A DNA stretch of 48,400 nt from a gamma proteobacterium HTCC2207 (lineage in GTDB: Bacteria > Pseudomonadota > Gammaproteobacteria > Pseudomonadales > Porticoccaceae): contig CAJJAU010000045.1 in assembly GCA_905182275.1 (NCBI GenBank), positions 1 to 48,400 of the forward strand, read 5' to 3'. The position numbers and the translations under genes are program-made. Below, piece by piece: positions 2,207 through 32,725 of this stretch; the first letter of the stretch is position 1, and each line of letters begins with the position of its first letter. The notes beneath the pieces were generated by a model. It did no database searches. It had not been told where the DNA came from and saw nothing but the letters and a program-made list of their open reading frames with translations.

Positions 2207-2218
2207 ACAGATACCCAC

Positions 2219-3102: not shown

Positions 3103-3122
3103 CTGCGTAGAGAGTTCCAGAG

Positions 3123-7574: not shown

Positions 7575-7609
7575 ATAAAAAACCCCGGACAGAATCTCTG
7601 GCCGGGGTT
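7575..7609 (-). terminator. Rho-independent terminator of the first TonB-dependent receptor gene
   Basis: AACCCCGG (7581-7588) pairs with CCGGGGTT (7602-7609) around a 13-base loop. On the minus strand the stem runs into TTTTTT and TATT. It lies 20 bp past the receptor stop codon and ends that transcript before the PRTase gene. Confidence 0.88.
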
Positions 7610-7628
7610 GGTTGTTTAACGGCTAATT

Positions 7629-13853: not shown

Positions 13854-14627
13854 TTACTTTTCTACAAAAGCTCTTTCGATAACATACTCACCCATCTTAG
13901 AATTCCGTGCTTCAGAGAAGCCTCTGTCATCTAAAATTTTGCACATATCTTTGAGCATACTTGGGCTGCCACAAAGCATAAAACGATCATCCTGGTTATT
14001 TGGCATTGGTATGTCTAAGTCTAGAAATAGTTTACCAGAGGTCATCATGTCTGTGATCCGGCCATTGTTTCTAAACGGCTCCCTCGTCACAAGAGGGTAG
14101 TAAATCAATTTTTGCTTAACAAAATCGCCAAAATACTCATGCTCAGGTAGTTCGTTTTGAATGTAATCGCTGTAGGCTAGTTCTGAAATGTAGCGCACAC
14201 CATGGGCCAAAATTATTCGATCAAACTGCTCATAGACCTCTGGATCTTTAATAATGCTCATAAAAGGGGCTAAGCCTGTTCCTGTCCCGATCAGATAGAG
14301 ATTTTTCCCCGGCAACATTTGGTCAGTGATTAAAGTCCCAGTTGGCTTTTTACCGATCAAAATTTTGTCGCCAGGCACCAGATGTTGTAGCTTTGAGGTT
14401 AGAGGACCGTCTTCTACTTTAATACTAAAAAACTCGAGTTCGTCTTCATAATTAGCGCTGGCAATGGAATAGGCACGCATTAACGGCTTACCTTCATGCT
14501 CAAGGCCGATCATCACGAAATGACCATTTTTAAATCTAAAACCAGCATCACGTGTAGTTTTAAAGCTAAATAATGTGTCATTCCAATGGTGAACATTGGT
14601 GACGGTCTCAGTAATCAGTTTTGCCAT
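13854..14627 (-). CDS. fpr: Ferredoxin/flavodoxin--NADP+ reductase (bacterial Fpr type)
   Basis: A 257-residue soluble flavoprotein. RAYSIASANY binds FAD, LIGTGTGLAPFMSII binds the NADP pyrophosphate, and MLCGSPSMLKDMCKIL is the distal NADP motif. The C terminus YVIERAFVEK, which lies over the flavin, is typical of subclass I bacterial Fpr. The enzyme exchanges electrons between NADPH and ferredoxin or flavodoxin, often in oxidative-stress responses. ATG 14627 has AAAGGA upstream. It lies 161 bp downstream of the AceE-type gene in the same direction. It could also supply reduced flavin to the halogenases further along, since no dedicated flavin reductase lies beside them, but that is speculation. 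Confidence 0.95.
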   Translation of the reverse strand: MAKLITETVTNVHHWNDTLFSFKTTRDAGFRFKNGHFVMIGLEHEGKPLMRAYSIASANYEDELEFFSIKVEDGPLTSKLQHLVPGDKILIGKKPTGTLITDQMLPGKNLYLIGTGTGLAPFMSIIKDPEVYEQFDRIILAHGVRYISELAYSDYIQNELPEHEYFGDFVKQKLIYYPLVTREPFRNNGRITDMMTSGKLFLDLDIPMPNNQDDRFMLCGSPSMLKDMCKILDDRGFSEARNSKMGEYVIERAFVEK

Positions 14628-17488: not shown

Positions 17489-17617
17489 GGGTCATCGCTC
17501 AGCGGTAAATAAAGCAGAATTGTAGGTGAGAATCCGTGGCAGGTGTTGCTGTTTTGTGGTGTAAATGGGAAGATTAAAGGCATATATATAAAATTTAAAG
17601 GATTGATTAAGCATATT
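17489..17617. promoter_or_regulatory. Divergent promoter region of the AceE-type gene and the Lrp regulator
   Basis: This 129-bp gap separates the two divergent start codons. Lrp/AsnC proteins commonly bind AT-rich DNA between themselves and their target, and the regulator-side half (about 17565-17610) is AT-rich. No clear palindrome was found. AAAGGA before 17618 is the likely ribosome binding site of the regulator, though rather far from the ATG. Confidence 0.4.
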
Positions 17618-18094
17618 ATGCCGAATAATGAGATTGATTCCATAGATTTGCGAATACTTCATGAGCTTCAACAGTTTGGGAGAATATCCAATGTAGATCT
17701 AGCAGGCAGGGTTGGGCTGTCTCCCTCACCTTGCTTGAGCCGCGTGCGAGCCCTAGAGCAAAAAGGGATTATTGACCGTTACGTTGCCTTGGTGAAGCCG
17801 GGCACCGTTGGCTTGTTGATCAATGTATTTATACAGGTGACACTTGAGAGGCAGGTTGAAAAAGCATTAGAAAATTTTGAATCCAAGATGCAGAGCTACC
17901 CCGAAGTGATGGAATGTTACCTAATGACTGGCAATAGTGATTATTTGATTAGACTTTTAGTTAGTGATATAGCAACCTTGGAAACATTTATTGTTCAAAA
18001 GCTGTCGACCATTCAGGGCGTTTTAAATATTCAATCTAGCTTTGCCTTGAAGCAGGTCAAGTATAAAACCGAGTTGCCGATCACTTCGGGATAA
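17618..18094 (+). CDS. Lrp/AsnC-family transcriptional regulator
   Basis: A 158-residue protein with the full family layout. The N-terminal helix-turn-helix runs IDSIDLRILHELQQFGRISN, DLAGRVGLSPSPCLSRVRAL, then GIIDRYVALV. The C-terminal RAM domain includes VMECYLMTGNSDYLIRLLV, the effector-binding and oligomerisation turn. Lrp-type proteins sense amino acids and activate or repress nearby catabolic genes. The closest functional candidate by context is MdeR, the activator of mdeAB, because its neighbour is an AceE homolog. ATG 17618 gives the conserved start; an upstream in-frame extension to 17543 is not family-like. The direct target is probably the divergent E1 gene. Confidence 0.93.
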   Translation: MPNNEIDSIDLRILHELQQFGRISNVDLAGRVGLSPSPCLSRVRALEQKGIIDRYVALVKPGTVGLLINVFIQVTLERQVEKALENFESKMQSYPEVMECYLMTGNSDYLIRLLVSDIATLETFIVQKLSTIQGVLNIQSSFALKQVKYKTELPITSG

Positions 18095-18393: not shown

Positions 18394-21354
18394 ATGGTAT
18401 TCAGAAAGAGATTACTCTCATCTAGCGTTGCATTAGCGCTTATCGGCACAGCAGTTCCTGCGTTCGCTCAAGACGAGGGAGTGATAGAAGAAATTATTGT
18501 CCAGGGTGGTATTCGTGGCAGTTTGAAAGCCTCGATGGACATTAAGCGAGATTCTATGGGTGTTGTGGATGCTATTTCAGCTGAAGATATCGGTAAGTTC
18601 CCCGATGCGAACTTAGCAGAATCTTTGCAACGTATTACCGGTGTGTCTATTTCTAGAAGTCGCGGTGAAGGTAGTCAGGTAACAGTTCGTGGCTTTGGTC
18701 CTGAATACAACCTAGTTACTTTGAATGGTCGGCAAATGCCAACTCACAATGGAGCAAGCCGGTCGTTTGACTTCGGTGATCTCGCCTCTGAAGGTGTTGC
18801 TGGTGTGCAGGTCTACAAGACAGGCCGTGCAGATGTACCCTCAGGTGGTATCGGATCGACCATTAATATATCAACGCCTAAGCCTCTTGAGGCTGACCCT
18901 ATTGGAAGTATCTCTGTTAAGGCTGTTAACGATACCTCTACTCGCGCTGGCGATGAGTACACTCCAGAATTTTCTGGCATCTACATGAATACCTTTGCTG
19001 ATGACACTATCGGTATAGCCATTATAGCCAGTCGACAAGAGCGTAATAACGGTGTCAATGCGGCAAGCGTTGGAGGCTACTATACTAGAGCTGGCGATGG
19101 AGCTGATCAAAAATTATCAGGCAATGATAATCAGATTAATCGACCAACCACAGCAGACTCAAATTATTCTTTACCTCAATCGATGGCCTACAACATTGCA
19201 GAATACAGCAGTGAAAGAACTAACGGTCAGATAGTATTGCAAATGGCACCATCAGACTCTGTGAGCATGACGCTAGATTATATTCGCTCAGAGTATGACC
19301 TTGAGCGGTCTTACAGTGATCTGTCGGCATGGTTCTCAAATACTGCTGCGGTATCTCAATCTAGTTCGTGGACAGATGGCCCAATTGCTAGCCCAACTTT
19401 TTACCAAGAGACTGTCAAAAACAATGACTTTGCCATGGGTACTGGTGAAGATGGACGGACTAACACTAATGAATCATTAGGTTTGAATTTTGATTGGCAA
19501 GTCAATGATGAATTAGTGCTCAATTTTGACTGGCATGATTCGTCTGCAGAGACAGGCGCAAATGGTCCTAATGGAACTAGCTCATTAATAACAATGGCAA
19601 GTTTTAATAAGGTAGGTCAGACCTTTATTACTGGATATGATATGCCAGTTATGTTGCTGGATTTGAATTCTGGCGGTGAAACTGATCGACCTCTTTATAA
19701 AAATGACATGATCATCACCGGTAGTACATTCGTAAATGATGCTGCGTTAATGAATATTGAGCAAAGTAAGTTCAGCGGCACCTGGGACTTCTCTGAGGAC
19801 TCAAGTATTGATTTTGGTGTACAGATCTCAGACGTCGACAACAAAGCGGTTTCTAACTTTGTACAGCTAAATAACTGGGGAGGAAGTACTAATCCTGGGG
19901 ATTTGGCAGATATAGTTGTTCGTTCAAGTGTTGAAGGTCAATTTGATCAACTCTCAGGTAATGATTATGAGGGTATTCAGACAGAATATATGACGGCTTC
20001 ATTAGCAGACTTGATTGCGGCAGGAGAGGCTTCCTATGTGGTAAGCGGCGCTGACTATGAAGCTATTGGTGACTGTGGTACTGGGTACTGTGCCTCTACT
20101 AAATACAATGGTGAAGACGTCAATGGCTTCAGTAACCTCTTTACTCTTGAAGAATCAATTGCAGCTTATATTCGTTACAACTTAGCCACCGAAGTGTCTG
20201 GAATGCCCGTCAATTTGCATCTGGGTCTTCGTTATGAGGAAACTGATATCACCTCTCAAGCAGTCACTTCAGAGTACGACGGAACAGTTTGGGCTAAAGC
20301 AGGTAACGAAGCTTATTTGACAGCGAAAGCTGGGGGCGGAGAGCCAGATTCTTTCTTGGGCAACTACGATTTTGTATTACCTAGCCTTGATTTTGACATT
20401 GAGGTTGTGGAGGACGTTGTCTTGCGCGCATCCTTTAGTAAAACGATAACACGCCCAAGTTATAACGATATTAAAGGTGGCCTAACGGCTAACAGTACTC
20501 AGTTTTACGCTAATCAGAATGCTTTTGCATCGGCGGGTAATCCTGATTTAGAGCCAATTTTGTCTCGTAACATAGATCTTTCAGCTGAGTGGTATTACGG
20601 CGAGGGAAGTTACGTATCGGTTGGATATTTCGATAAGGACGTTGATAAATTCATTGGTTCGGGTATCGGAGAGCGTTCATTGGGAGCAATTCCTAACATC
20701 ATTGGCGGTACCCTTTGGAATCAAGCTGTTGCTGAAAGTGGCCTTGATCCTGCTCAATACACTGTAGTTGCTCAGTATATTTTAGATAATTACCAAGACA
20801 GCCCCTATGTTAACGGAGATGAGATCTCTGGTGCGGCGGGTGATCCTGATTTGATATGGACTGTGACTCAGCCTGTGAATCAAAAGAAAGCGCGGGTTGA
20901 TGGTGTTGAGATCAATCTGCAGCATTTCTTCGGCGAATCAGGTTACGGATTTATTGCTAACGCGACCTTTGCAAGTGCTGATGTTGGTTACGATAATATG
21001 AAATTTAATGAGGGGCAGTTTGTTCTTAATGGCTTAAGTGATTCAGCTAACTTGGTGGGCGTCTACGATAAAGATGGACTGTCTGTTCGTTTAGCTTACA
21101 ACTGGCGAGATGATTTCTTGGCCGGCGCTGGTCAAGGTCAGGGTACTAATACTAACCCAACAAATGTTGAAGCCTATGGCCAGTTAGATCTTGGTATTAC
21201 CTATGAATACAATGATAGGCTAACTATCTATGCATCAGGTCTTAATATTACGGATGAAACAGTTCGTGTGTATGGCAAGTCTAAAGATTTAGTGCTGCAA
21301 GCAGTGCAGGGTGGTCCAAGATACGATTTGGCAATCCGTTATAAACTGTTCTAG
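18394..21354 (+). CDS. Large TonB-dependent receptor of the Xanthomonas/Caulobacter class (TIGR01782-like)
   Basis: A 986-residue receptor with signal peptide MVFRKRLLSSSVALALIGTA ending in FAQ. IEEIIVQGGIRGSL is the TonB-box-like start, followed by SAEDIGKFPDANLAESLQRI and VTVRGFGPEYNLVTLNGR, the plug signature of the TIGR01782 class. The C terminus is RYKLF. This class is linked to uptake of carbohydrates and other complex substrates in Xanthomonadales, Caulobacterales and marine gammaproteobacteria, and is often followed by tryptophan-halogenase-like and SapC-family genes, exactly as here. The next gene begins 178 bp downstream after a long stem-loop. The ligand is not known. Confidence 0.93.
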   Translation: MVFRKRLLSSSVALALIGTAVPAFAQDEGVIEEIIVQGGIRGSLKASMDIKRDSMGVVDAISAEDIGKFPDANLAESLQRITGVSISRSRGEGSQVTVRGFGPEYNLVTLNGRQMPTHNGASRSFDFGDLASEGVAGVQVYKTGRADVPSGGIGSTINISTPKPLEADPIGSISVKAVNDTSTRAGDEYTPEFSGIYMNTFADDTIGIAIIASRQERNNGVNAASVGGYYTRAGDGADQKLSGNDNQINRPTTADSNYSLPQSMAYNIAEYSSERTNGQIVLQMAPSDSVSMTLDYIRSEYDLERSYSDLSAWFSNTAAVSQSSSWTDGPIASPTFYQETVKNNDFAMGTGEDGRTNTNESLGLNFDWQVNDELVLNFDWHDSSAETGANGPNGTSSLITMASFNKVGQTFITGYDMPVMLLDLNSGGETDRPLYKNDMIITGSTFVNDAALMNIEQSKFSGTWDFSEDSSIDFGVQISDVDNKAVSNFVQLNNWGGSTNPGDLADIVVRSSVEGQFDQLSGNDYEGIQTEYMTASLADLIAAGEASYVVSGADYEAIGDCGTGYCASTKYNGEDVNGFSNLFTLEESIAAYIRYNLATEVSGMPVNLHLGLRYEETDITSQAVTSEYDGTVWAKAGNEAYLTAKAGGGEPDSFLGNYDFVLPSLDFDIEVVEDVVLRASFSKTITRPSYNDIKGGLTANSTQFYANQNAFASAGNPDLEPILSRNIDLSAEWYYGEGSYVSVGYFDKDVDKFIGSGIGERSLGAIPNIIGGTLWNQAVAESGLDPAQYTVVAQYILDNYQDSPYVNGDEISGAAGDPDLIWTVTQPVNQKKARVDGVEINLQHFFGESGYGFIANATFASADVGYDNMKFNEGQFVLNGLSDSANLVGVYDKDGLSVRLAYNWRDDFLAGAGQGQGTNTNPTNVEAYGQLDLGITYEYNDRLTIYASGLNITDETVRVYGKSKDLVLQAVQGGPRYDLAIRYKLF

Positions 21355-21369
21355 ATCTTAGTAGATAGA

Positions 21370-21418
21370 TAGAACCAATGAGGCCGCTCTAATTTTTTGG
21401 GCGGCTTCTTTGGTTCTA
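21370..21418 (+). terminator. Long stem-loop between the receptor and the halogenase operon
   Basis: Positions 21370-21387 pair with 21401-21418: 16 of 18 positions are complementary, including GAACCAA/TTGGTTC and GCCGC/GCGGC. A T-run lies in the loop rather than after the stem, so it is not a standard intrinsic terminator. It begins 15 bp past the receptor stop. It may end or stabilise the receptor mRNA and lower expression of the genes that follow. Confidence 0.6.
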
Positions 21419-21532
21419 ACGTATATAGAAGTAGTAAAGAAATTTCCAAAGAATAATGAGTTACTATTAGCTTTCGTAGCTACATTTGTTGCTGACCATG
21501 TAGCGGACATTGAAATGATTTGAATGAGCTAG

Positions 21533-23125
21533 ATGTATTTTATGACCCCAGATCAAAAAATAAATAGCATTGTTATTGTGGGTGGTGGGACTGCCGGATG
21601 GTTAACGGCGGGTATTATAGCCGCAGAGCATAGTGCCAATGGCACTGCGATCAATGATTTGGTTGATGTGCAAATCACATTGGTGGAATCACCGGATGTT
21701 CCAACTATTGGAGTCGGAGAAGGTACCTGGCCTTCAATGAAATCCACTTTACAAAAAATGGGTATCTCCGAAACTGATTTAATTCGAGAATGCGATGCCA
21801 GTTTCAAGCAGGGTACGCTTTTTAATGGTTGGAAAACCGGTGGAAATGATGCGTACACCCACCCGTTCACTCCCCCTCATTCCTATGCTTCGACTAATTT
21901 AGCGCCCCAATGGCAGAAATTTCGAAATGAAGTTGCCTTTGCTGACGCAGTGTCATCACAAAATGCGTTAATGTTTCAGGGCTTAGCCCCGAAGCAAATA
22001 TCCACGCCCGAATATGCCTTTAATGCTAATTATGGATATCATCTTGATGCGGGTAAGTTTGCTGAGCTACTCCGGAAACACTGCGTCGATAAATTAGGGA
22101 TCACTCACCTAAAAGCAAATGTGATTGCTATTAACTCGTCGGCTGATGGTGATATCGAGTCTCTACAAACTGACACGGAAGGGCATATTGCAGGTGATTT
22201 ATTTGTTGATTGCAGTGGTTCCAAAGCGCTGTTGCTAGGGGAGCATTTTGAGATACCCTTCTGCTCGAGAAGCCAGTTTCTGTTTAACGATACTGCATTG
22301 GCTTCTCAGGTTCCCTATACCAACAGCGATGATCCGATTGCATCAAGTACATTATCTACCGCTCAGACCTCCGGGTGGATTTGGGATATCGGATTACCAA
22401 CCAGACGCGGTATCGGTCATGTGTATTCCAGTGCTCATACTACCGAAGACCGTGCTAGTGAAGAATTGTTGGCATATATTAAAGCGACGGTTAGTGCCGA
22501 AGCAGCCTCGACAACGTCAATTAGGAAGGTTGCATTTAATCCAGGTCATCGCGCCAAATTTTGGCATAAAAACTGTGTCGCCGTAGGTATGTCTGCTGGT
22601 TTTATAGAACCGCTGGAAGCATCAGCACTGGTTTTAGTGGAGCTGTCTGCCGCTATGATTGCCGAGCAATTACCTGCAAATCGACAGGTGATGGATCTTG
22701 TGGCGAAGCGTTTTAATGCTAAGTTTCTCTATCGCTGGGACCGAATTATTGATTTTTTGAAGCTTCATTATATTCTCTCTCAGAGACAGGATAGTGATTA
22801 CTGGAAAGATAACATTGCTGCGTCGAGTATTCCTGAAAGTCTATCTGAACTCATAGATCTATGGCGGTGGCAAAGTCCTTGGCATAGAGATACCGGGCAC
22901 ATTGATGAAATGTTTCCGTCGGCGAGTTTTCAATATGTACTTTACGGAATGGGCTTTGAAACTCAAAGTAGTACGACAGTGAGGCGATCTGATAGAGAAG
23001 CCGATTCTGCGGCAGCGGGGCTTTTCCGAGAAAATGCAGAGAGAACCCAAAAGTTGCTGGCCTCAATGCCCACTAATAGGGAATTAATCGATAAAATCAC
23101 TACCTACGGTTTGCAAAAAATATAA
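21533..23125 (+). CDS. Flavin-dependent tryptophan-halogenase-family protein (copy 1)
   Basis: A 530-residue protein of the PrnA/RebH family (PF04820). VGGGTAGW (16-23) binds FAD. Lys92 in SFKQGTLF aligns with the catalytic Lys79 of PrnA, and Glu362 in FIEPLEAS with Glu346; the next residue is Ala where PrnA has Ser347. The family WxWxIP box is altered to WIWDIGLP (282-289). True halogenases use FADH2, O2 and halide to make HOCl or HOBr, which the lysine guides to an aromatic substrate. No tryptophan-specific pocket can be claimed. ATG 21533 is used; ATG 21542 is an alternative. First gene of a tight operon with SapC, a JmjC-like oxygenase and a second halogenase. Confidence 0.9.
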   Translation: MYFMTPDQKINSIVIVGGGTAGWLTAGIIAAEHSANGTAINDLVDVQITLVESPDVPTIGVGEGTWPSMKSTLQKMGISETDLIRECDASFKQGTLFNGWKTGGNDAYTHPFTPPHSYASTNLAPQWQKFRNEVAFADAVSSQNALMFQGLAPKQISTPEYAFNANYGYHLDAGKFAELLRKHCVDKLGITHLKANVIAINSSADGDIESLQTDTEGHIAGDLFVDCSGSKALLLGEHFEIPFCSRSQFLFNDTALASQVPYTNSDDPIASSTLSTAQTSGWIWDIGLPTRRGIGHVYSSAHTTEDRASEELLAYIKATVSAEAASTTSIRKVAFNPGHRAKFWHKNCVAVGMSAGFIEPLEASALVLVELSAAMIAEQLPANRQVMDLVAKRFNAKFLYRWDRIIDFLKLHYILSQRQDSDYWKDNIAASSIPESLSELIDLWRWQSPWHRDTGHIDEMFPSASFQYVLYGMGFETQSSTTVRRSDREADSAAAGLFRENAERTQKLLASMPTNRELIDKITTYGLQKI

Positions 23126-23165
23126 ACTGTTAGGAACTTAAAATAATAGGTTGTTTGGAGTAACT

Positions 23166-23888
23166 ATGAGCAATTACGTCCTGCTAAATAATAGCGCCCA
23201 CAAAGATTTAAGAGTGATCACTACCCGATCTGAAAGCTATGGCGATAATGTTATGCACGCGATGACGTTTCCCATAGAATTTCGCGACGTTCAATCAAGT
23301 TATCCAATATTTTTCTGTAAAGATTCAGAGTCTGGGCAGTTCTATCCTGCCGCTCTTTTTGGTCTTGAGCAGAATCAGAATTTATTTTTGACCGAAGGTG
23401 GATGGGATGCATCCTATATTCCCATGATGATAAAGCGGCACCCATTTCTTATTGGTTATCAAACCGACCCTGAGCATGTAGGCGGAAAAAAGCCAGTAGT
23501 GTCTATCGATATGGACAATCCTCGTATTAATGATAGTGAAGGGGAGCCTCTATTTTCTGATAATGGTGAGGCTACGGATTATTTAAAGGAATCCATTAGT
23601 ATGCTGGAAGCAATTCATCATGGGCATGAGCACAATAAAGGTTTTGTTGAGACCTTATTAGAGCATGACTTGCTTGAAGCATTTACTTTGGAGGTTGTTC
23701 TTAACGATGGTTCAAAAAATCAATTAACCGGGTTTTATACCATCGCGGAACAAAAACTGCATGAACTAGAGGGAGATACTTTTGCGATGTTAAATAAACG
23801 CGGTTACCTCCAAGCAATTTTTATGGCGGTGGCTTCTCACTCTCGACTTAGGCCGCTTGTTGAAAAACGGAATGCTCTAATACTGTAA
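23166..23888 (+). CDS. SapC-family protein
   Basis: A 240-residue protein starting MSNYVLLNNSAHKDLRVITT and containing FPIEFRDVQSSYPIFFCKDS and YIPMMIKRHPFLIGY, the pattern of the SapC family (PF07277). The family was named from a Campylobacter surface-layer gene, but its molecular role is unknown. It recurs beside TonB-dependent receptors and tryptophan-halogenase-like genes in Caulobacter, Xanthomonas and marine bacteria. I see no signal peptide and no membrane helix, so it is probably cytoplasmic. ATG 23166 has GGAG six bases upstream, which is why I prefer it over the in-frame TTG at 23151. It lies 40 bp after halogenase copy 1. Confidence 0.88.
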   Translation: MSNYVLLNNSAHKDLRVITTRSESYGDNVMHAMTFPIEFRDVQSSYPIFFCKDSESGQFYPAALFGLEQNQNLFLTEGGWDASYIPMMIKRHPFLIGYQTDPEHVGGKKPVVSIDMDNPRINDSEGEPLFSDNGEATDYLKESISMLEAIHHGHEHNKGFVETLLEHDLLEAFTLEVVLNDGSKNQLTGFYTIAEQKLHELEGDTFAMLNKRGYLQAIFMAVASHSRLRPLVEKRNALIL

Positions 23889-23917
23889 TTACTAGCTCTT
23901 TTTAGGGGACGATTTAC

Positions 23918-24931
23918 ATGTTAGAAATTGTAAATAATATTAAAGAGATCGACTGCTGCGCTTGGGACAGTATTCCTGAAGAGGTCTTATTATCTTCTCA
24001 GCCAGTCGTACTTCGGGGGTTAGTAGCTGATTGGCCAATAGTGGCGGCAGCTAATCAATCAACCGAGCAAACTATTGCCTATTTGAAAAAGTTTGATAGT
24101 GGCAGACCTCTTACGGCGATGGAAGGTGGCGCCGATATTGATGGGCGGATTTTTTATAATGATGATTTTGACGGGTTTAATTTTGATTATCATCGGATGA
24201 CTTTAGCCCAGGTATTTGAGAAATTGGTTGAATATCAAAGGATAGATAAACCACCGATGATCTATGTAGGATCGACTAATATAGATAACTGGTTGCCAGG
24301 CTTTAGAGATGAAAACGATTTAGTGCTTGGTGACAGATCACCACTAGCCTCGCTGTGGATCGGTAATCGGAGCCGTGTTGCACCTCATTATGATTTCCCA
24401 ACGAACATTGCATGCTCGGTCGCAGGCCGGCGACGATTTACGCTGTTTCCTCCCGAGCAATTGCATAATATGTATGTGGGTCCAATTGATCGTTCTCCAG
24501 CAGGTCAGCCAATCAGTTTAGTTGATCTGGCTGACCCAGACTACCAGCGCTTCCCAAAATTTGAGCAGGCTTTACAGGCTTCACAGGCAGCAGATTTAGC
24601 GCCTGGAGACGCAATACTAATACCTAGTATGTGGTGGCATCATGTTGAAGCTATGGACAGTCTAAATGTATTGGTTAACTATTGGTGGCGCAGTACACCC
24701 AGCTTTATGGGCCCACCACTAAGTGTATTACAGCACGCTATTTTAGGCCTTCGAGATTTACCGGAGGATCAACGAGCCGTATGGAAAGATTTATTTGACT
24801 ACTATGTATTCAATCCGAGTGAAGAAAACGTAGCGCACATTCCTGAATCCGTTAGAGGAGCGTTAAATCCAATAACTGAACAAACTGCCCAACAAATTCG
24901 TGGCCTATTATTAGAACAATTTAAGCACTAA
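23918..24931 (+). CDS. Cupin-8/JmjC-like Fe(II)/2-oxoglutarate oxygenase
   Basis: A 337-residue protein of the cupin-like (PF13621) group related to FIH and JmjC hydroxylases. The iron triad is visible: His157 and Asp159 in APHYDFPTN, and the distal His241 in PSMWWHHVEA. The stretch VAGRRRFTLFPPEQL after the HxD motif is the standard family segment. Such enzymes hydroxylate protein side chains or small molecules with O2 and 2-oxoglutarate. AGGGGA lies nine bases before ATG 23918. It sits between SapC and the second halogenase, with 29 and 23 bp gaps, so all are probably one transcript. The substrate is unknown; an amino-acid or peptide product shared with the halogenases is a fair guess. Confidence 0.9.
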   Translation: MLEIVNNIKEIDCCAWDSIPEEVLLSSQPVVLRGLVADWPIVAAANQSTEQTIAYLKKFDSGRPLTAMEGGADIDGRIFYNDDFDGFNFDYHRMTLAQVFEKLVEYQRIDKPPMIYVGSTNIDNWLPGFRDENDLVLGDRSPLASLWIGNRSRVAPHYDFPTNIACSVAGRRRFTLFPPEQLHNMYVGPIDRSPAGQPISLVDLADPDYQRFPKFEQALQASQAADLAPGDAILIPSMWWHHVEAMDSLNVLVNYWWRSTPSFMGPPLSVLQHAILGLRDLPEDQRAVWKDLFDYYVFNPSEENVAHIPESVRGALNPITEQTAQQIRGLLLEQFKH

Positions 24932-24954
24932 CAGTGTTTATTGGAGAGTTGAGT

Positions 24955-26442
24955 TTGACAGCACAAAGAATAAAAAAAGTGGTAATCGTTGGTGGGGGAA
25001 CCGCAGGTTGGATGGCTGCGGCCTCTATATCAAGGTTAATTGGTAGAGACCTGGATATCACTTTGGTTGAGTCCGATGAAATAGGGACTGTGGGTGTTGG
25101 AGAGGCGACTATTCCTACTTTTTTTGCCCTACATCAATTGCTGAAAATCAATGAAGCAGAGTTTCTTTCTGAGGTGCAGGGCACCATTAAGCTGGGTATT
25201 TCCTTTGAAAGTTGGAAAAACAAAGGAGAGGACTATATTCATGCCTTTGGGTATACAGGGAAATCATGTTGGGCTGCAGGGTTCCAACATTTTTGGCTCA
25301 AAGGAAAAGCTCTAGGTTTCAGTGAAGAATATAGCCATTACTCTCCAGAATTGATGGCGGCAAAAGCTAATAAGTTTGGTCTTCTCAAGCAGAATAGCTT
25401 GAATTATGCCTATCATATTGATGCCAGTTTATATGCTAAATTTCTGCGAAGAATGGCCGAAGAGAGCGGCGTTATTCGTAAAGAAGGAAAAATTGTTAAG
25501 GTCGACCAAGCTAGCGACGGGGATATCCAAAGTGTCGTTTTAGATTCTGGACTAAAGATTGATGGTGATCTGTTTATCGATTGCTCTGGATTTTCAGCCT
25601 TGTTGATCGACAAGACTTTGGGTGTCGAGTATGAAGACTGGTCCCACTGGTTGCCCTGTGACAGTGCTATTGCGGTGCAGACAGCATCGGTATCATCGCC
25701 CATTCCTTACACCCGTTCTATCGCCAGAGATTGCGGTTGGCAATGGCGTATTCCTCTGCAGTCGCGCGTGGGTAACGGATTGGTCTTCAGTAGCCAATAT
25801 ATGAGTGATGATGAAGCAACACAGTTTTTGCTGAATAATGTGGAAGGTGAAACCTTAACGACACCTCGAGTGATTAAGTTTCGCACCGGTCAACGAAAAA
25901 CACAATGGAGCAAAAACTGTGTCGCCTTGGGGCTCGCTGGAGGCTTTTTAGAGCCCTTAGAAAGCACCAGTATTCATCTTATTCAGCGCGGGATCATTCG
26001 TTTAATGCAGATGTTTCCGCTGACAGGCATAACAGATGCTGACCGTGATGAATTTAATCGTCAAATGAGTGACGAATATAACTTTATTCGTGATTTTATT
26101 ATCATGCACTATCACGTGACGGAGCGAAGCGACACCGCGTTTTGGAGACAGTGCAAAACTATGGATATCCCTGAGTCCTTAGATCATCGCCTAAGATTAT
26201 TTAAACAATCAGGGCGCGTATTTCAGGGGGAAGGAGATGTTTTTGGTGAAAACAGTTGGACCCAGGTTATGTTGGGCCAAGGTCTAATGCCAGAACAGTA
26301 CCATCCTATCGTTGATATGATGAGTGATGCTGAGCTAGAACGGTTCTTGAAAACGAATAAAGCCATGGTTGATCAGGTCGTCGGGCAATTACCTACACAT
26401 CAACAATTTTTGAATCAATATTGCCCAGCAAAACCACTCTAA
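24955..26442 (+). CDS. Flavin-dependent tryptophan-halogenase-family protein (copy 2)
   Basis: A 495-residue protein with the active-site signatures nearest to PrnA in this window. VGGGTAGWMAA binds FAD; Lys79 in TIKLGISF falls at the very number of the catalytic lysine of PrnA/RebH; the intact family box WQWRIP spans 262-267; and Glu336-Ser337 in FLEPLESTSI match PrnA Glu346-Ser347. I choose TTG 24955 because GGAGAG lies 8 bases upstream and the resulting start MTAQRIKKVVIVGGG is typical; GTG 24934 would add seven residues and has no ribosome binding site. It differs greatly from copy 1 in sequence, so the two are old paralogs rather than a recent duplication. The substrate is unknown. Confidence 0.92.
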   Translation: MTAQRIKKVVIVGGGTAGWMAAASISRLIGRDLDITLVESDEIGTVGVGEATIPTFFALHQLLKINEAEFLSEVQGTIKLGISFESWKNKGEDYIHAFGYTGKSCWAAGFQHFWLKGKALGFSEEYSHYSPELMAAKANKFGLLKQNSLNYAYHIDASLYAKFLRRMAEESGVIRKEGKIVKVDQASDGDIQSVVLDSGLKIDGDLFIDCSGFSALLIDKTLGVEYEDWSHWLPCDSAIAVQTASVSSPIPYTRSIARDCGWQWRIPLQSRVGNGLVFSSQYMSDDEATQFLLNNVEGETLTTPRVIKFRTGQRKTQWSKNCVALGLAGGFLEPLESTSIHLIQRGIIRLMQMFPLTGITDADRDEFNRQMSDEYNFIRDFIIMHYHVTERSDTAFWRQCKTMDIPESLDHRLRLFKQSGRVFQGEGDVFGENSWTQVMLGQGLMPEQYHPIVDMMSDAELERFLKTNKAMVDQVVGQLPTHQQFLNQYCPAKPL

Positions 26443-26459
26443 TCATTCCGGAGAATCAA

Positions 26460-26828
26460 GTGAATCAAACCAATGTATTTGGTGAATCGATTGAAGAGTG
26501 CTGTAGTCATCCCATTACGGGTTACTTCCGTGATGGGTTTTGCAATACGACTAAATATGATCGAGGCTCGCACACTATCTGTGCATTGATTACTGATGAT
26601 TTTTTAGTGTTTTCTCAGTCTCGAGGCAACGATTTATCAACACCCAGACCCGAATTTGAATTCCCTGGTTTAGTTGCCGGGCAATCTTGGTGCTTATGTG
26701 CGGGTCGCTGGCTTGAAGCCCATGAGGCTGGTTTTGCGCCTAGAGTTCATTTAAAACGCACTAACAGCGAATCACTCAATATTGTGCCTTTGGACATACT
26801 GCGGCACTATGCAACAGATCTAAACTAG
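26460..26828 (+). CDS. DUF2237 (PF09996) family protein
   Basis: A 122-residue protein. NVFGESIEECCSHPITGYFR, CNTTKYDRGSHTICA and GNDLSTPRPEFEFPGL, then WCLCAGRWLEAHEAG, give a near-complete DUF2237 pattern. The function of the family is not known to me. Several conserved cysteines (ECC, FCN, WCLC) and acidic residues suggest metal or redox chemistry, which is inference. The start is GTG 26460, preceded by GGAG seven bases upstream and 17 bp after the second halogenase; an in-frame upstream ATG at 26421 would overlap that gene and add non-conserved residues. Probably co-transcribed with the halogenase operon. Confidence 0.88.
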   Translation: MNQTNVFGESIEECCSHPITGYFRDGFCNTTKYDRGSHTICALITDDFLVFSQSRGNDLSTPRPEFEFPGLVAGQSWCLCAGRWLEAHEAGFAPRVHLKRTNSESLNIVPLDILRHYATDLN

Positions 26829-26853
26829 ATTTTAAAAATCAGAGGGTGAACGT

Positions 26854-27474
26854 ATGGGTCTTTATGATAAGTACATTTTACCAAGTTTTTTAAACTGCGC
26901 CTGCGGCAGTAAGCCGATCAATTATCAACGACAAAAAGTGGTTCCTTGTGCCGAGGGCATTATTTTAGAAGTTGGAATTGGCTCCGGGTTGAATATTCCA
27001 TTTTACGACAGAGCTAAGGTGAAGAAACTCATTGGTCTTGATCCATCAGCTGAGCTTAATGCCATGGCCCAAAAAATGGCCAATAAGCATGACCTTGAGG
27101 TTCAGTTTTTACTCAGTGGTGCTGAGGATATTCCTCTTCCAGATCATCACGTAGATACGGTCTTAGTGACCTACACGATGTGTACTATTCCCGATGCGCT
27201 TACGGCCAATAAAGAAATGCTCAGAGTGTTAAAGCCCGGTGGCAAGATGATTTTTTGCGAACATGGTCTAGCCCCTGATGCGAAGGTGTCAAAATGGCAG
27301 AGCCGAATCGACCCGCTCTGGGGAAAGATTGCCGGTGGCTGTCACCTAAATCGTGATATTCCTGAGTTGATTCGTTCTGCGGGTTTTCATATTCAAACTA
27401 TGGATGAGATGTATCTACCCAGCACCCCTAAATTTGCGGGTTACAATTATTGGGGCGTTGCAACCCACGGTTAA
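26854..27474 (+). CDS. Class I SAM-dependent methyltransferase
   Basis: A 206-residue methyltransferase. LEVGIGSGLNIPFYDRA is the SAM-binding motif I, IGLDPS the motif II acid, and AEDIPLPDHHVDTVLVTYTM covers motifs III-IV; VLKPGGKMIFCEHG is the usual post-core strand. It resembles the Methyltransf_11 group that includes METTL7-like and phospholipid N-methyltransferase-like proteins, but the acceptor is unknown. GAGGGTG lies just upstream of ATG 26854, 25 bp after the DUF2237 gene, so it is likely the last gene of the operon. Its end is 12 bp from the convergent HxlR-type regulator. Confidence 0.88.
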   Translation: MGLYDKYILPSFLNCACGSKPINYQRQKVVPCAEGIILEVGIGSGLNIPFYDRAKVKKLIGLDPSAELNAMAQKMANKHDLEVQFLLSGAEDIPLPDHHVDTVLVTYTMCTIPDALTANKEMLRVLKPGGKMIFCEHGLAPDAKVSKWQSRIDPLWGKIAGGCHLNRDIPELIRSAGFHIQTMDEMYLPSTPKFAGYNYWGVATHG

Positions 27475-27486: not shown

Positions 27487-28422
27487 TTAGCGCTTAAAGT
27501 GAACCTCAGTCGCGATAAGCCCTTCGCCACATTGGTCGCAGCGCACCTCGGCATTTAAATCTGCACCACAGCTTATGTGCTTGAGTAGAATGGGGTTGCC
27601 ATCTCCCGTTGTGCACCATTTATCGCCCCACGCCATGAGTGTTACAAAATAGGGGAATAGATCTCGACCCTTATCGGTAAGATGATAGTCATAACGCAGT
27701 GGACTAACTTGGTAGGGCTGCTGATAAAAAATACCTTCGTTAACTAATAGTTTTAACCGATCGGCGAGAATATTCGTCGCCACCGGCAGCTCTGTATGGA
27801 AATCATCAAAGCGATTAAACCCATGAAAAGCCAACGCAATAATATTTGCGGTCCAGCGATCACCCAATAGATTAATTAAATTGTTGTAGAGTGTTTTACC
27901 ACGGTCTTCAGAGGCAGAGAGGTTTGATGATCGTCTGCGTGTTTTGGTGATACGTGTATCGTTTTTAGCACCGGGACCTTTATGAAAGCTTACATCTGTC
28001 GAAAGTACTGACTGATTGCAATGGCTGCATTCCATCATTGGCCAAAATGCCTTGCCACAGCGGTCGTGGATCAATTCCACAGAATCTAACGCTGGAGTGG
28101 TGAAATACTTTCGTTCCCAAGTCATGGCCATTAATCCATTGCGATAGAGTTCAATGGACTTTTTTGTCATATGATAGGTGGGTCGTTTTTGACCTTTAAC
28201 GGTAATATCTTTGCGCAGACAACCCACTGACTGTAGCCAGCTGAGTCTATTGCTAAGGACACCGCGAGAAGCCCCCGTGCCGGCTAGCATATCGCTAAAA
28301 GTGTTAATGCCCCAAAACACCTCTTGAAGAATTAATAGACACCACTTATCACCAATTTCATCGAGAGCGCGGTTAATTGAGCTCGCTTTAGTGCTGACTG
28401 TGGTTTTACCTGAGAGGTTCAT
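27487..28422 (-). CDS. Tandem HxlR-family regulator with two winged-helix units and two putative zinc ribbons
   Basis: A 311-residue protein containing two complete HxlR-like halves. Unit 1: DKWCLLIL (25-32) begins the winged helix, ending with HDRCG (Cys122) and CSHC (Cys132, Cys135). Unit 2: DRWTANII (188-195) begins the second, ending with HISCG (Cys285) and CDQC (Cys295, Cys298). The HxxCG to CxxC spacing is the same in both halves (10 residues from Cys122 to Cys132 and from Cys285 to Cys295), so each unit has a matching four-ligand zinc-ribbon-like tail. Ordinary HxlR proteins are about 110 residues and act as dimers; this one would be a built-in dimer. It is 36 bp downstream of the carotenoid oxygenase gene in the same direction and may control that gene or the divergent acyl-CoA operon. 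Confidence 0.9.
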   Translation of the reverse strand: MNLSGKTTVSTKASSINRALDEIGDKWCLLILQEVFWGINTFSDMLAGTGASRGVLSNRLSWLQSVGCLRKDITVKGQKRPTYHMTKKSIELYRNGLMAMTWERKYFTTPALDSVELIHDRCGKAFWPMMECSHCNQSVLSTDVSFHKGPGAKNDTRITKTRRRSSNLSASEDRGKTLYNNLINLLGDRWTANIIALAFHGFNRFDDFHTELPVATNILADRLKLLVNEGIFYQQPYQVSPLRYDYHLTDKGRDLFPYFVTLMAWGDKWCTTGDGNPILLKHISCGADLNAEVRCDQCGEGLIATEVHFKR

Positions 28423-28458: not shown

Positions 28459-29964
28459 CTATGCCCAAAGATCCTCACCACGACTCCACCAAGCATGGAA
28501 ACCAACAGGCACGCGATGAGGTATTTTAACCCGTGCAATGGGTCCTTGAGATATATCTTGAGCATCGAATATCTGTAGCTCAGATGTCCACGTGTTGCTG
28601 TCGGTGACCAAAGACATGACATAGCCATGATCTTCTACGCTATTACGATCGGCGCCTTTAACCGGCGCAAAAGGGGTTTCACTACCATAAACACCATCGC
28701 CATAGTCCCATTGGACGTTTTGACCGGTGTCGTTATTGTATTTAACCATTCCATTGAAGCGCAGAGTATGGCCGCCTTCTTCGAGCAGTGGAATACGTTG
28801 ATGATAGGCATATTTAGATTTTATACCATGATAAATTTGGTTGATTTTATTGAATTCTGTATTTAGATCGTCAATATCACCTTCACGGACTTCGCCAGTC
28901 ACTAGGTTAAAACGCCAGCGATAGTTGTTGGCTTCCAAGCGCATGTAAGCCAGCATATGAGACAGTGCGCCCTCCTCATTGGCAGCATTTGGCATTGGGT
29001 TAATCGATCGACAGCCATCCATAGTGATCCAATCGCCGTCTTCCCAACAGTTGGACACATGCAGAATAAAACAGGGTTCACAGTCGAACCAACGGATTTC
29101 TCTAGCATCGCCATAACGCGGAATAACACCGAACCGCGAGGGCATATCATGGTGAAAATTGAGCACCCGCATGTTGTGGTTACGCAATACCTTCATGTCA
29201 TGGAAGAACGGCAAATCATGGAGGATGGTGTAATGGGTAGTAAAGCCTAAATCATGAGGTAAACGTGGTCCGGCCAACTCAATATCAACCTCATGGCGCA
29301 GGGTTCCATCGGGGTTAGCAACACCATAGGTCATGAAGGGTGCATCATCGCCATAGTCCATAAAAATTAATTCACCGGTGTTCCAGTCTATGTGACTATG
29401 AGCAGACATATTTCTGCGCGTACGACCTTCAACATCAAAAACACCCTGATTTTCTAAGGTCAGAGGGTTCATCTGATAGGGAATTCCGGCGTTGTACCAA
29501 GTGGGTACGAGCTTGCCATTAAACATCACAATATCGGTATTACCGGTATCTTTGATAGGAAAATCAGGCAGTGAAAAATCGAAAGGCCCCATGACCCCCG
29601 GCCATACTGCTTCACTTTTTGTCATTTCATGCTGCAGGGCAGCTGTATGAATATAACTATTGCGATAAGACGCCTTACCGTCCCTGATATAAATAGCATG
29701 TACCATCCCATCACCATCAAAGGGGTGATAGAGGTTTTTGGGCTTAAACATTGGATTGGGCCCATTGCGGTAAAACGCACCAAACAAATCATCCGGTAGC
29801 TCACCGATAACCTCTAGTTCATTGACCACAATTTCATCAGAGGTTGGCGCATAGGCACCATGAAGATAGGGATTATCTAACTCGTAAATCCATTGTTGAG
29901 TGTTATCAAATTTAGGGGCAGATCCGATACATTTCTCGGTAATTTCGAAGAAATTACTACTCAT
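28459..29964 (-). CDS. Carotenoid-oxygenase-family dioxygenase (RPE65/lignostilbene dioxygenase-like)
   Basis: A 501-residue protein of the carotenoid oxygenase family (PF03055), a seven-bladed propeller with a four-histidine iron centre. The likely ligands are His189 (SAHSHID), His237 (PHDLGFTTHY), His302 (ILHVSN) and His490 (VGFHAWW); the N-terminal FYRNGPNPMF and HPFDGDGMVHAI are also typical. The enzymes split C=C bonds with O2 in carotenoids, apocarotenoids or stilbenes. No signal peptide is present. AAGGA lies before ATG 29964. It is divergent from a nitronate-monooxygenase/acyl-CoA ligase/thiolase operon, which could use the acid made from the aldehyde product. Substrate class is not settled by sequence alone. 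Confidence 0.93.
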   Translation of the reverse strand: MSSNFFEITEKCIGSAPKFDNTQQWIYELDNPYLHGAYAPTSDEIVVNELEVIGELPDDLFGAFYRNGPNPMFKPKNLYHPFDGDGMVHAIYIRDGKASYRNSYIHTAALQHEMTKSEAVWPGVMGPFDFSLPDFPIKDTGNTDIVMFNGKLVPTWYNAGIPYQMNPLTLENQGVFDVEGRTRRNMSAHSHIDWNTGELIFMDYGDDAPFMTYGVANPDGTLRHEVDIELAGPRLPHDLGFTTHYTILHDLPFFHDMKVLRNHNMRVLNFHHDMPSRFGVIPRYGDAREIRWFDCEPCFILHVSNCWEDGDWITMDGCRSINPMPNAANEEGALSHMLAYMRLEANNYRWRFNLVTGEVREGDIDDLNTEFNKINQIYHGIKSKYAYHQRIPLLEEGGHTLRFNGMVKYNNDTGQNVQWDYGDGVYGSETPFAPVKGADRNSVEDHGYVMSLVTDSNTWTSELQIFDAQDISQGPIARVKIPHRVPVGFHAWWSRGEDLWA

Positions 29965-30137: not shown

Positions 30138-31043
30138 ATGTCATTTAGTAATCTTCGTTTGCCAGTTATTCAGGCGCCGATGTTTTTATTGTCTGGGCCT
30201 GAAATGGTCATTGCCAGCTGTAGAGCGGGGATTGTCGGATCATTTCCCTCGCCTAATGCTAGGACCATCGATGTGTTAGAACAGTGGTTACGCACTATTA
30301 CTGAGGCACTTGCAGGTTCTCCGCAAGCGGCACCCTGGGCGTTAAATTTAGTGATGCACCGGTCTAATCCCCGCCGTCTTGAAGATCTACAGTTAGCGGT
30401 TAAATACCGAGCCCCTATTGTTATCACTGCACTGGGTAGCCCCGAGGAAGCAGTGGATGCTGTGCAAGCTTATGGCGGAAAAGTTTACGCAGATGTAACA
30501 ACCATTGAATTTGCCCGTCGCGCTGCGGCATCGGGAGTCGACGGTTTGGCATTGATTTGCTGCGGCGCGGGAGGTCATACCGGCCAGCTATCACCCTTTG
30601 CCTTTGTCGATGAAGTTCGCCAGTTTTTTGATGGAGAGATCATCCTCTCGGGGGCTATTGGCAATGGCCGCGCCATTCGAGCAGCACAAGTTTTAGGCGC
30701 TGACTATGTATATATGGGGACACGATTCATACCGACTGACGAATCTTTAGCTCAAACAGACTACAAAACCATGGTGGTCGAATCCAGCGGTGCAGATATC
30801 GTTACTTCAGATTCAGTCACCGGTGTTAAAGCCAATTGGCTTAAAGGAAGCCTGGTTAACGCTGGCTATGACACTGACAACATGCCATCGCCTGGAGAGA
30901 TTAATTTTCTTGAGGCTGCGGGGGATGTCAAACGATGGCGAGATATCTGGGCAGCAGGCCAGTCAGTGGGGTCTATTAGTCGCAATCAATCTATTGCTGA
31001 GGTGGTTGATCAGTTAGATAAAGAGTATAGGGCCAGCCTATGA
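30138..31043 (+). CDS. Nitronate monooxygenase-family flavoprotein (2-nitropropane dioxygenase-like)
   Basis: A 301-residue TIM-barrel flavoprotein. LPVIQAPMFLLSGPEMVIAS is the classic N-terminal strand, CCGAGGHTGQLSPFAFV contains the conserved GGHTG with the catalytic-type His, and LSGAIGNGRAI plus GADYVYMGTRF bind the FMN phosphate. NMO proteins oxidise nitronates, but many family members sit in acyl-CoA catabolic operons with unknown roles, and trans-acting enoyl reductases share the fold. Here it is the first gene of an operon with an acyl-CoA ligase (4-bp overlap) and two thiolases, so a role in breakdown of an unusual acid is more likely than nitronate detoxification. ATG 30138 is used. 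Confidence 0.88.
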   Translation: MSFSNLRLPVIQAPMFLLSGPEMVIASCRAGIVGSFPSPNARTIDVLEQWLRTITEALAGSPQAAPWALNLVMHRSNPRRLEDLQLAVKYRAPIVITALGSPEEAVDAVQAYGGKVYADVTTIEFARRAAASGVDGLALICCGAGGHTGQLSPFAFVDEVRQFFDGEIILSGAIGNGRAIRAAQVLGADYVYMGTRFIPTDESLAQTDYKTMVVESSGADIVTSDSVTGVKANWLKGSLVNAGYDTDNMPSPGEINFLEAAGDVKRWRDIWAAGQSVGSISRNQSIAEVVDQLDKEYRASL

Positions 31044-32725
31044 TTACCTCACCTCAGCAGCGCATTAAAGAGTATACCGAACGTAATTGGTGGGGCCATG
31101 AGACCTTACATGACCTTCTGCAGCGGCAGGTTGAAAAAAATCCCGAATTACTGGCTGTTGCAGATCAGCCTAATCGAGGCGAATTAACCGGCGACGCCCC
31201 CTATCGCTTAACCTACAGTGAGCTTAATGACGCCAGTACCGCACTTGCATGTCAGTTAATTGATGCGGATATTGGTGCGGATGATGTCGTTATTGTGCAA
31301 CTCCCCAATATCGCAGAGCTAGTCATCTGCTATATGGCCTGTAGCAAGGTAGGCGCAATTATTTCGCCGATTCCAGTGCAATATGGACGTCATGAATTAA
31401 CTCATATTAGTGCCATGGTTTCCCCCAAGGCAATGATTACAATTGATAGCTTTAGAGATCTGCCACTGGCGAAAAATGCTCAAGAATACCTTGATGACAG
31501 GATAGCATTGCTGGTTTTTGGTAAAGACTTGCAGGTGAATAGTAGCCCAGATGAAACCTACCAATTGCAGTTATCCCGTTATCAACAATTCCACCCAGCA
31601 GATGCCAACCATATTATTACCATTTGCTGGACCTCGGGAACCACAGGTACACCCAAAGGCGTGCCACGATCTCACAACATGTGGATTGCTACGGCCCGGT
31701 GCTGCGCTGAGGCGGGAAATTACCAAGCCGGAGATCGCTTTTTAAATGTCTTTCCGCTGGTCAATATGGCATCAATTGGCGGATTTTTATTTCCGGCCCT
31801 AATAACTGGATGCAGTATTATTTTGCATCATCCCTTAGATCCGAGTCTGTATTTGAGTCAGTTACAGAATGAAAAAATTACCTTTACTCTTGCACCGCCC
31901 TTACTACTGAACCAACTGGCCAAATCCCCCGACATGTGGGGCCAGTTTGATTTTTCTAACCTGCGCTCTATAGGCTCTGGTTCGGCGCCTCTTGCCCCTT
32001 GGATGATTGATACTTTTAGTCAGAAGTATGGGTTAGATGTGATTAATTTTTATGGATCTAATGAAGGGATTAGTTTGTTCTGTACACCTATGCACACGGC
32101 TGACAGCGATATTCGAGCGACTATGTTTCCAAGATTAGGATGTGGTATCGATCATTTTGATTCCTATGCAAATAAGGCGCTGCTCAGCAAGGTGGTGGAT
32201 ATAGATACTGGGGAAGTGATTACTCAAGTTGGGCAGGTAGGGGAGTTACTGTTTGCTGGGGCAACGGTGTTTGATGGCTACCTCTGTACTGACAATACCG
32301 AATTATTCCGTGACGATGGTTACTTCCATACCGGCGATCTGGTTGAGATTTGCGGTGAGCCGCCTTGGTTTTATCGAATAGCCGGGCGCAGCAAAGATAT
32401 TATTAATCGCGGTGGTATGAAAATCTCTCCTGCAGAGATTGATATTTTGTTAGAAGGCTTGCCCGATTCGACAGAGGCTGCGGTGTGTAAGTACCAAGAT
32501 GATGAACTGGGTGAGAAGATCTGTGCTTGTATAGTCATGGAGCCCAACACTGAAATTATAACCTTAGAGAAATTATCGGACTATCTCAGTGCACTAGGCA
32601 TCGCTAAATTTAAACTGCCGGAGCGCATAGAGTTTTTTACTCATTTGCCGCGTAATCCATTGGCCAAGGTGCAGCGTTTTATGTTGGAAGACAGTGTCAG
32701 CCAACGTCAGCAGGAGAATATTTAA
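31040..32725 (+). CDS. AMP-forming acyl-CoA synthetase (ANL superfamily)
   Basis: A 561-residue adenylating enzyme. The A3 loop TSGTTGTPKGVPRSH, the A5 segment INFYGSNEG, the A7 GYFHTGDLV and the A8 hinge IAGRSKDIINRGGMKISPAEI are all present, and the C-terminal LPRNPLAKVQRF carries the A10 lysine needed for adenylate formation. The style of N terminus (TERNWWGHETLHDLL) recalls cyclic or aromatic acid ligases such as DhbE and cyclohexanecarboxylate-CoA ligase more than long-chain FadD, though this is a judgement by eye. It activates a carboxylic acid to its CoA ester via an acyl-AMP. Start and stop overlap neighbours by 4 bp and 1 bp, indicating translational coupling. Confidence 0.92.
   Translation: MITSPQQRIKEYTERNWWGHETLHDLLQRQVEKNPELLAVADQPNRGELTGDAPYRLTYSELNDASTALACQLIDADIGADDVVIVQLPNIAELVICYMACSKVGAIISPIPVQYGRHELTHISAMVSPKAMITIDSFRDLPLAKNAQEYLDDRIALLVFGKDLQVNSSPDETYQLQLSRYQQFHPADANHIITICWTSGTTGTPKGVPRSHNMWIATARCCAEAGNYQAGDRFLNVFPLVNMASIGGFLFPALITGCSIILHHPLDPSLYLSQLQNEKITFTLAPPLLLNQLAKSPDMWGQFDFSNLRSIGSGSAPLAPWMIDTFSQKYGLDVINFYGSNEGISLFCTPMHTADSDIRATMFPRLGCGIDHFDSYANKALLSKVVDIDTGEVITQVGQVGELLFAGATVFDGYLCTDNTELFRDDGYFHTGDLVEICGEPPWFYRIAGRSKDIINRGGMKISPAEIDILLEGLPDSTEAAVCKYQDDELGEKICACIVMEPNTEIITLEKLSDYLSALGIAKFKLPERIEFFTHLPRNPLAKVQRFMLEDSVSQRQQENI

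Follow-up and report, generated by a model that had tools for sequence, protein, structure and literature searches.

Loci that couple a TonB-dependent receptor (TBDT) to the use of a glycan are already known: in the carbohydrate utilization (CUT) loci of Xanthomonas, as laid out in the main text of the paper describing them, such a receptor is tied to glycan degradation, an inner-membrane transporter and a regulator, and that main text makes no mention of a halogenase or of SapC (PMC1790865). Here we describe a locus of the gamma proteobacterium HTCC2207 (assembly GCA_905182275.1, 2.02 Mb, 91% complete) in which a TBDT of the TIGR01782 (TonB-Xanth-Caul) type is followed by a block of four genes, coding for two members of the flavin-dependent 'tryptophan halogenase' family (HalA and HalB), a SapC family protein and a Cupin_8 (JmjC-like) 2-oxoglutarate oxygenase. 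The locus lies on contig CAJJAU010000045.1 (C45), of which positions 1 to 48,400, the whole stretch analysed, are referred to below as the window. We find that these five genes form a conserved core and that the enzymes track one receptor family, and we propose, with a probability of roughly 0.4, that a glucan receptor is here accompanied by cytoplasmic enzymes, made at a lower dose, that may alter the receptor, or a partner protein of the cell surface, ahead of export.

The proteins of the block have relatives of known structure in three cases. HalB is the same kind of enzyme as Xcc4156 and BrvH, whose natural substrate is likewise unassigned; its closest solved chain is 6y1w (Xcc4156 of Xanthomonas; E 9e-197), followed by 9luq, with 6frl (BrvH) third. 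The closest solved structure to HalA is 2pyx (E 6e-191), a 'tryptophan halogenase' of Shewanella origin for which we found no function; the match of HalA to QhpG is weak (36 bits, cut-off 240). The closest solved relatives of the Cupin_8 oxygenase are the protein hydroxylases FIH and JMJD5, which resemble it in their aligned metal-binding residues and differ from it in that similarity is low, at an E of only 1e-20 with FIH aligned across 124 residues. SapC, for which a confident model was obtained (pLDDT 96.4), has no solved relative by sequence and no fold match at E up to 0.001 in the PDB or BFVD.

We found no paper stating a link between halogenase, SapC and TBDT, in a search that did not extend to subscription papers and preprints. 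Xanthomonas 'nix' genes of an N-acetylglucosamine regulon, TBDT-linked and belonging to these families, are reported to have been described by Boulanger et al. in 2010. In the parts of their text consulted, the papers on BrvH and Xcc4156 do not mention TonB, SapC or cupin, nor discuss the gene neighbourhood under those names (PMC5945002, PMC7336383); the same holds for a description of the link in PMC11337851, PMC8269204 and PMC12645471, and for any mention of a halogenase in marine papers such as PMC8371827, PMC8319329 and PMC6383258.

Gene order and composition of the locus

The receptor gene (18394..21354, plus strand, as are all genes of the block) codes for 986 aa. Its product scores 623 bits with TIGR01782 (cut-off 310), contains both Plug and barrel domains, and is the sole protein above that cut-off in the source assembly; an AlphaFold2 model (pLDDT 87.3) has the plug-and-barrel fold and matches solved siderophore receptors. 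An Lrp-type regulator is encoded upstream of it (17543-18094). Behind the receptor follow HalA (21533..23125, 530 aa; PF04820, 384 bits), SapC (23166..23888, 240 aa; PF07277, 239 bits against a cut-off of 28.9), Cupin_8 (23918..24931, 337 aa; PF13621, 245 bits) and HalB (24955..26442; PF04820, 623 bits), and then, on the same strand, a DUF2237 protein (26460..26828; PF09996, 168 bits) and a class I S-adenosylmethionine (SAM) methyltransferase (26854..27474; PF08241, 70 bits), both of which are neighbours in one lineage only. The original prediction, made from the letters of the window, had placed the same seven genes at these positions, and open reading frame calls with Pfam/NCBIfam profile searches, in which 29 window proteins were scanned, recover each of them and its family. 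Ribosome-binding sites precede the starts of SapC (ATG 23166), HalB (TTG 24955) and DUF2237 (GTG 26460), alternative upstream starts being listed for HalB (GTG 24934) and DUF2237 (TTG 26421). Given the former starts, the gaps within the putative operon are 40, 29, 23, 17 and 25 bp, within the predicted range of 17-40 bp.

The two PF04820 matches of the source assembly and its only SapC all lie in this block. Beyond their profile matches, HalA and HalB share the GGGTAG motif (GxGxxG) and a conserved lysine and glutamate (K92 and E362 in HalA, among 64 sequences; K86 and E343 in HalB, numbered from 24934, among 81 sequences), each conserved in at least 97% of cases. We take this Lys and Glu to be the catalytic residues, by analogy with RebH and PrnA. 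The WxWxIP motif reads WQWRIP in HalB and WIWDIG, without the proline, in HalA. Cupin_8 carries the HxD...H iron site, with H157, D159 and H241 at least 97% conserved among 77 sequences. Because the presumed catalytic Lys and Glu and the His-Asp-His triad are so well conserved, the sequences suggest that these proteins are catalysts. On reading the N-termini, with no predictor run, no evident signal peptide was seen in HalA, HalB, SapC or Cupin_8. As had been predicted, the halogenases have no PF01613 flavin reductase next to them, the sole one in the assembly being on contig C6; an FNR-like oxidoreductase is encoded in the window at 13854-14627.

The HalB of the window is up to 98% identical to the HalB of Porticoccaceae / SAR92-type metagenome genomes among the best 80 of 149 loci, which make up our HalB-based locus set; since these loci were retrieved via HalB, enrichment of its partners in the set is partly by design. 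The order HalA-SapC-Cupin_8-HalB was found in 55 of the 69 HalB loci having at least 3.7 kb of upstream view, and the complete order TBDT-HalA-SapC-Cupin_8-HalB in 43 of the 64 having at least 6.6 kb. Where the downstream side could be seen (75 loci), DUF2237 is present in 7 and the methyltransferase in 8, all of them within L034-L041 (from Porticoccaceae and SAR92 genomes and one named only Cellvibrionales); L033 shows DUF2237 too, its contig stopping there, and L045, Porticoccaceae as well, has neither gene. Because these two genes are confined to L034-L041, the conserved set is not a receptor plus six genes, and the conserved core consists of five: TBDT, HalA, SapC, Cupin_8 (FIH-like) and HalB.

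The methyltransferase and DUF2237 genes following the block in this lineage could be taken to mean that HalA and HalB serve an unrecognised natural-product pathway, as known members of the halogenase family do in the parts of PMC8269204 that concern them. We regard this as highly improbable: no polyketide synthase (PKS) or nonribosomal peptide synthetase (NRPS) family was found among the 29 window proteins scanned, the AMP-binding gene (31040-32725) is grouped with thiolases, and neither the methyltransferase nor DUF2237 turned up beyond L033-L041.

The enzyme unit is modular. Variants without HalA occur (e.g. L086), DUF6445 is added to the full set behind 18 of 88 receptors, up to three HalB-type copies stand behind one receptor (L193, L201), and in L157 the series SapC-Cupin_8-HalB-DUF6445-HalB-DUF6445-HalA places seven module genes after a single receptor (264-11450).

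Other arrangements were also seen. Behind the enzyme block, L053, L056, L057 and L059 encode a protein of about 700 aa (TPR-containing in L053, which was scanned; L056 and L057 are Woeseiaceae by name), and in the first three of these loci a receptor ortholog lies several kb off on the opposite strand. Receptor and HalB genes are divergent rather than co-directional neighbours in L269, L274, L276, L279, L280 and L298, which belong to genomes of the same phylum outside the class (G239, G145, G243, G200).

Linkage to one receptor family, glycan context and the intergenic hairpin

Ten genomes picked for carrying the module (nine via HalB loci, G057 via SapC) contain 74 TIGR01782 receptors above cut-off, and for 37 of these the next gene on the same strand belongs to the module, being HalA in 18 cases, HalB in 12, SapC in 6 and Cupin_8 in 1. 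Seen from the enzymes, 56 of the 60 full-length 'tryptophan halogenases' of these genomes (matches of at least 365 bits, weaker ones being excluded) lie at most 9 kb downstream of a TIGR01782 receptor, against about 0.7% expected by chance. Because this set had been chosen for the module, the count was repeated on a phylum-wide sample of 200 evenly drawn genomes, with at most 7 candidates scored per genome, receptors recognised with local profiles at more than 300 bits, and DNA on the upstream side only for most halogenases. Here 41 of 48 full-length halogenases, from 14 genomes (matches of at least 298 bits; weaker ones, G000 and G057 excluded), are found no more than 9 kb from a receptor of the family. 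Of these, 25 are downstream on the receptor's strand, 13 are encoded on the strand opposite to it, and 3 share its strand but sit on its other side. The association of receptor and enzymes is real and widespread, and the TBDT-halogenase-SapC neighbourhood, given as recurrent by the original prediction, does recur in the HalB loci, the ten genomes and the phylum sample. In control searches, SapC and PF04820 also gave matches in Caulobacter vibrioides, though PF04820 did so in E. coli as well.

The surroundings of the receptor in relatives point to glycans. A GH16, GH3 or GH1 gene is present in the flanks of 47 of 61 relatives' loci (L042-L112, at least 13 kb), and any of nine sugar-use families (GH16/GH3/GH1, sugar transporter, LacI, glucokinase, Entner-Doudoroff-type) in 52 of them, with a LacI regulator in 22; the same profiles, which are local and were trained on the same relatives' loci, found nothing in 19 random 20-kb control regions, drawn from the ten module-carrying genomes only. 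Many of the relatives' loci resemble CUT loci. The window differs from them in that no glycosidase was found adjoining the receptor, and neither a glycosidase nor a sugar transporter, by which a CUT or polysaccharide utilization locus (PUL) would be recognised, among the 29 proteins scanned. Elsewhere in the source assembly there are two GH16 genes on C10, one with a CBM6 and neither with an adjoining TIGR01782 receptor, and two GH3 genes on C30. Judging from the relatives and from these GH16 and GH3 genes, the ligand of the receptor is likely to be a beta-glucan of the laminarin type. This would be in keeping with passages in the literature according to which laminarin clusters are predicted in 6 of 22 SAR92 species (PMC8371827), a SAR92 bin without a PUL expresses GH16 laminarinase transcripts (PMC6383258), and Gammaproteobacteria have receptors that are apparently laminarin-associated (PMC8319329). 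The original prediction had the receptor import an aromatic or peptide-like compound for subsequent halogenation; this is not supported by the position of relatives' receptors among GH16/GH3/GH1, sugar transporters and LacI, nor by enzymes that track the receptor family.

The glycosidases found by linked receptors are not of one kind, and include GH20 (L190, L197), GH36 (L194), GH95 (L196), GH31 (L193) and GH67 (L158). As differing glycosidases stand beside the modules, the enzymes follow the receptor rather than one sugar, which is hard to explain if they process its ligand. Algal polysaccharides can bear aromatic material, and enzymes with no evident signal peptide would encounter an imported ligand in the cytoplasm. 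There, in a version of the first alternative of the original prediction fitted to a glycan receptor, they might halogenate or hydroxylate a phenolic or other aromatic group on the incoming glycan, or a molecule that accompanies it. Indole is a substrate of BrvH and Xcc4156 in vitro, according to the sections of the two reports that deal with activity (PMC5945002, PMC7336383). We nevertheless consider such a role improbable, since the same enzymes occur by GH16/GH3/GH1, GH20, GH36, GH95, GH31 and GH67, i.e. by enzymes for several unrelated sugars, and no aromatic-degradation family is among the ten recurrent flank families scanned.

A terminator-like stem-loop (21370..21418, plus strand; minimum free energy -32.7 kcal/mol, z -6.0, core loop 9, by folding) lies in the 178 bp between receptor and HalA in the window. 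With a conserved short precursor gene, as in a locus for RiPP-type peptide modification, in mind, this gap was compared across 20 loci, in which its length ranges from 32 to 307 nt. Such a stem follows the receptor at 40 of 50 TBDT-HalA junctions of relatives, where shuffles (which kept base composition only) expect 0.8 of 50, as well as at 7 of 11 TBDT-SapC and 2 of 2 TBDT-HalB junctions. Inside the block it was found at none of 195 junctions (HalA-SapC 0/57, SapC-Cupin_8 0/68, Cupin_8-HalB 0/70), for which, duplicates having been removed, the stretches analysed were shorter (mean 41-64 nt vs 113). Within the ten-genome set a stem stands behind 31 of 37 linked receptors vs 11 of 31 unlinked ones with a same-strand next gene (p 5e-5), and behind 4 of the 6 remaining unlinked receptors. 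A scan of the window for sigma-70 promoters and terminators gave counts at or below those of shuffles; its terminator part allowed loops of at most 8, so that the hairpin at 21370-21418 went unreported. We read the hairpin as a site of partial termination: transcription would have to read through it to reach the block, and the enzymes would therefore be expressed below the level of the receptor.

The tight linkage to the receptor and the hairpin both imply regulation, and this would also suit proteins that are themselves sensors or regulators, responding to flavin, oxygen, 2-oxoglutarate or redox state, that adjust the receptor or its locus and do little if any chemistry on a defined substrate. 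The presence of up to three HalB-type copies after one receptor could be read in the same way. That the block is of this nature seems quite unlikely to us, as the presumed catalytic residues are at least 97% conserved, which suggests catalysis, and as many of the loci come with a regulator of their own (LacI in 22 of 61).

Possible substrates of the enzyme block

In the explanation that we favour, the receptor would sit in the outer membrane and import algal beta-glucan (laminarin-type) oligosaccharides, and HalA, SapC, Cupin_8 and HalB would form a cytoplasmic, oxygen-using enzyme set dedicated to it, whose expression is kept under that of the receptor by the need for read-through of the hairpin. 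The enzymes would act on the receptor polypeptide (or on a surface-protein partner) ahead of Sec export, a placement chosen because they have no evident signal peptide. HalA and HalB, using FADH2, would halogenate or hydroxylate aromatic side chains, halogenation being the chemistry that we would favour of the two; the FIH-like enzyme would hydroxylate a side chain, and SapC may be a substrate-binding or adaptor protein. The likeness of Cupin_8 to protein hydroxylases and the weak match of HalA to QhpG suggest chemistry of the protein type, and larger or peptide substrates have been proposed from the open active sites of BrvH and Xcc4156 in the relevant passages of the two papers (PMC5945002, PMC7336383). 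Modification of a protein was the second of two alternatives offered by the original prediction; it is now the better one, although it rests on the linkage to the receptor.

The case of SapC bears on how far such a system might extend. Thirteen loci with SapC and no other module gene were found by local profiles, and 8 of them were scanned with 1-2 neighbours each. Four adjoin a giant surface protein or a two-partner-secretion gene, namely RTX proteins (L162, L169), a cadherin/FG-GAP protein (L161) and a ShlB partner (L164), and the other four (L156, L159, L160, L168) have no clear partner. It is conceivable, though we hold it to be doubtful, that the block is an oxidative machinery dedicated to the post-translational modification of TIGR01782 outer-membrane receptors in the cytoplasm, prior to their export, with SapC alone serving other giant surface proteins. 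The same loci could be taken to indicate that the enzymes modify another component of the envelope in place of the receptor, be it a TonB-box partner, a secreted glycosidase, a lipoprotein or a lipid: SapC stands by the RTX and cadherin giants and the ShlB partner where no family receptor is seen, and most glucan loci also encode glycosidases. We think this unlikely, because what recurs next to the enzymes, whatever the sugar, is the receptor.

Residues that might mark the receptor as substrate were sought by comparing linked with unlinked receptors. Several columns separate the two groups, among them W904, T293 and Arg at 230. W904, the best aromatic signature, has a frequency of 0.98 in receptors with HalA and HalB, 0.71 with HalB only, 0.75 with HalA only and 0.22 in unlinked receptors, and Arg at 230 is the one column that tracks HalA on the receptor tree (9 of 16 changes), in a test from which L053, L056, L057, one receptor of L191 and all receptors seen only partly on their downstream side were left out. 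In a wider set of 126 receptors the Trp content is slightly higher in the linked ones (one-sided p 0.059). Distances between receptors and distances between enzymes correlate overall, with rho of 0.83 for HalA, 0.44 for HalB and 0.71 for SapC, values reached in 0 of 999 shuffles.

Several observations weigh against modification of the receptor by the block. As regards the receptor itself, linkage brings no enrichment in Trp, Tyr or His within the ten-genome set (Trp makes up 1.35% of linked and 1.25% of unlinked receptors, p 0.29). Four HalB-only receptors carry Lys at W904, and subfamily ancestry may explain that signature; column 230 lies in a ragged stretch of the alignment, and the receptor of the window has Tyr there. 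The columns that separate the two groups are confounded by ancestry and by the quality of the alignment. Within genomes the correlation of distances is weak, its value being reached by 71 (HalA), 81 (HalB) and 39 (SapC) of 999 shuffles. As regards the linkage, half of the family receptors in the ten genomes (37/74) do without the enzymes, 7 of the 48 phylum-sample halogenases have no near receptor in the DNA covered while 13 have theirs on the opposite strand, and the hairpin is found behind 11 of 31 unlinked receptors too. As regards the set, L035 and L036 (Porticoccaceae/SAR92 genomes) have undergone what amounts to a natural deletion of Cupin_8, with a gap of 77 bp between SapC and HalB and the rest of the block kept, and no glycosidase turned up next to the receptor within the 29 proteins of the window that were scanned. 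The proposal that the enzymes modify the receptor stands on linkage, not on chemistry.

Neighbouring genes and implications

Beyond the methyltransferase, and convergent to the block, the window codes for an HxlR-type regulator with two HxlR stretches (27487-28422, minus strand) and an RPE65/carotenoid-cleavage-type oxygenase (28459-29964, minus strand), a pair that is syntenic with the block in L034-L040. Two more TonB-dependent receptors are encoded in the window, at 7629-9914 (minus strand) and 41816-44776 (plus strand, followed by a gamma-glutamyltranspeptidase at 44866-46524). Neither has a TIGR01782 match or an adjoining halogenase or SapC gene.

Taken together, the locus is best seen as a glycan-receptor locus that carries a receptor-tracking oxygenase block. 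Halogenases of the BrvH/Xcc4156 type have been studied as biocatalysts, with their natural substrates unknown, and the attachment of most full-length members in the genomes examined to one receptor family makes the question of their substrate directly testable. If the block is indeed a system that modifies receptors, the 'tryptophan halogenases' of the BrvH/Xcc4156 type, a large orphan group, would gain a natural role and the uncharacterised SapC family a function, and the uptake of algal sugars by marine bacteria, which represents a large carbon flux, would turn out to involve a further layer.

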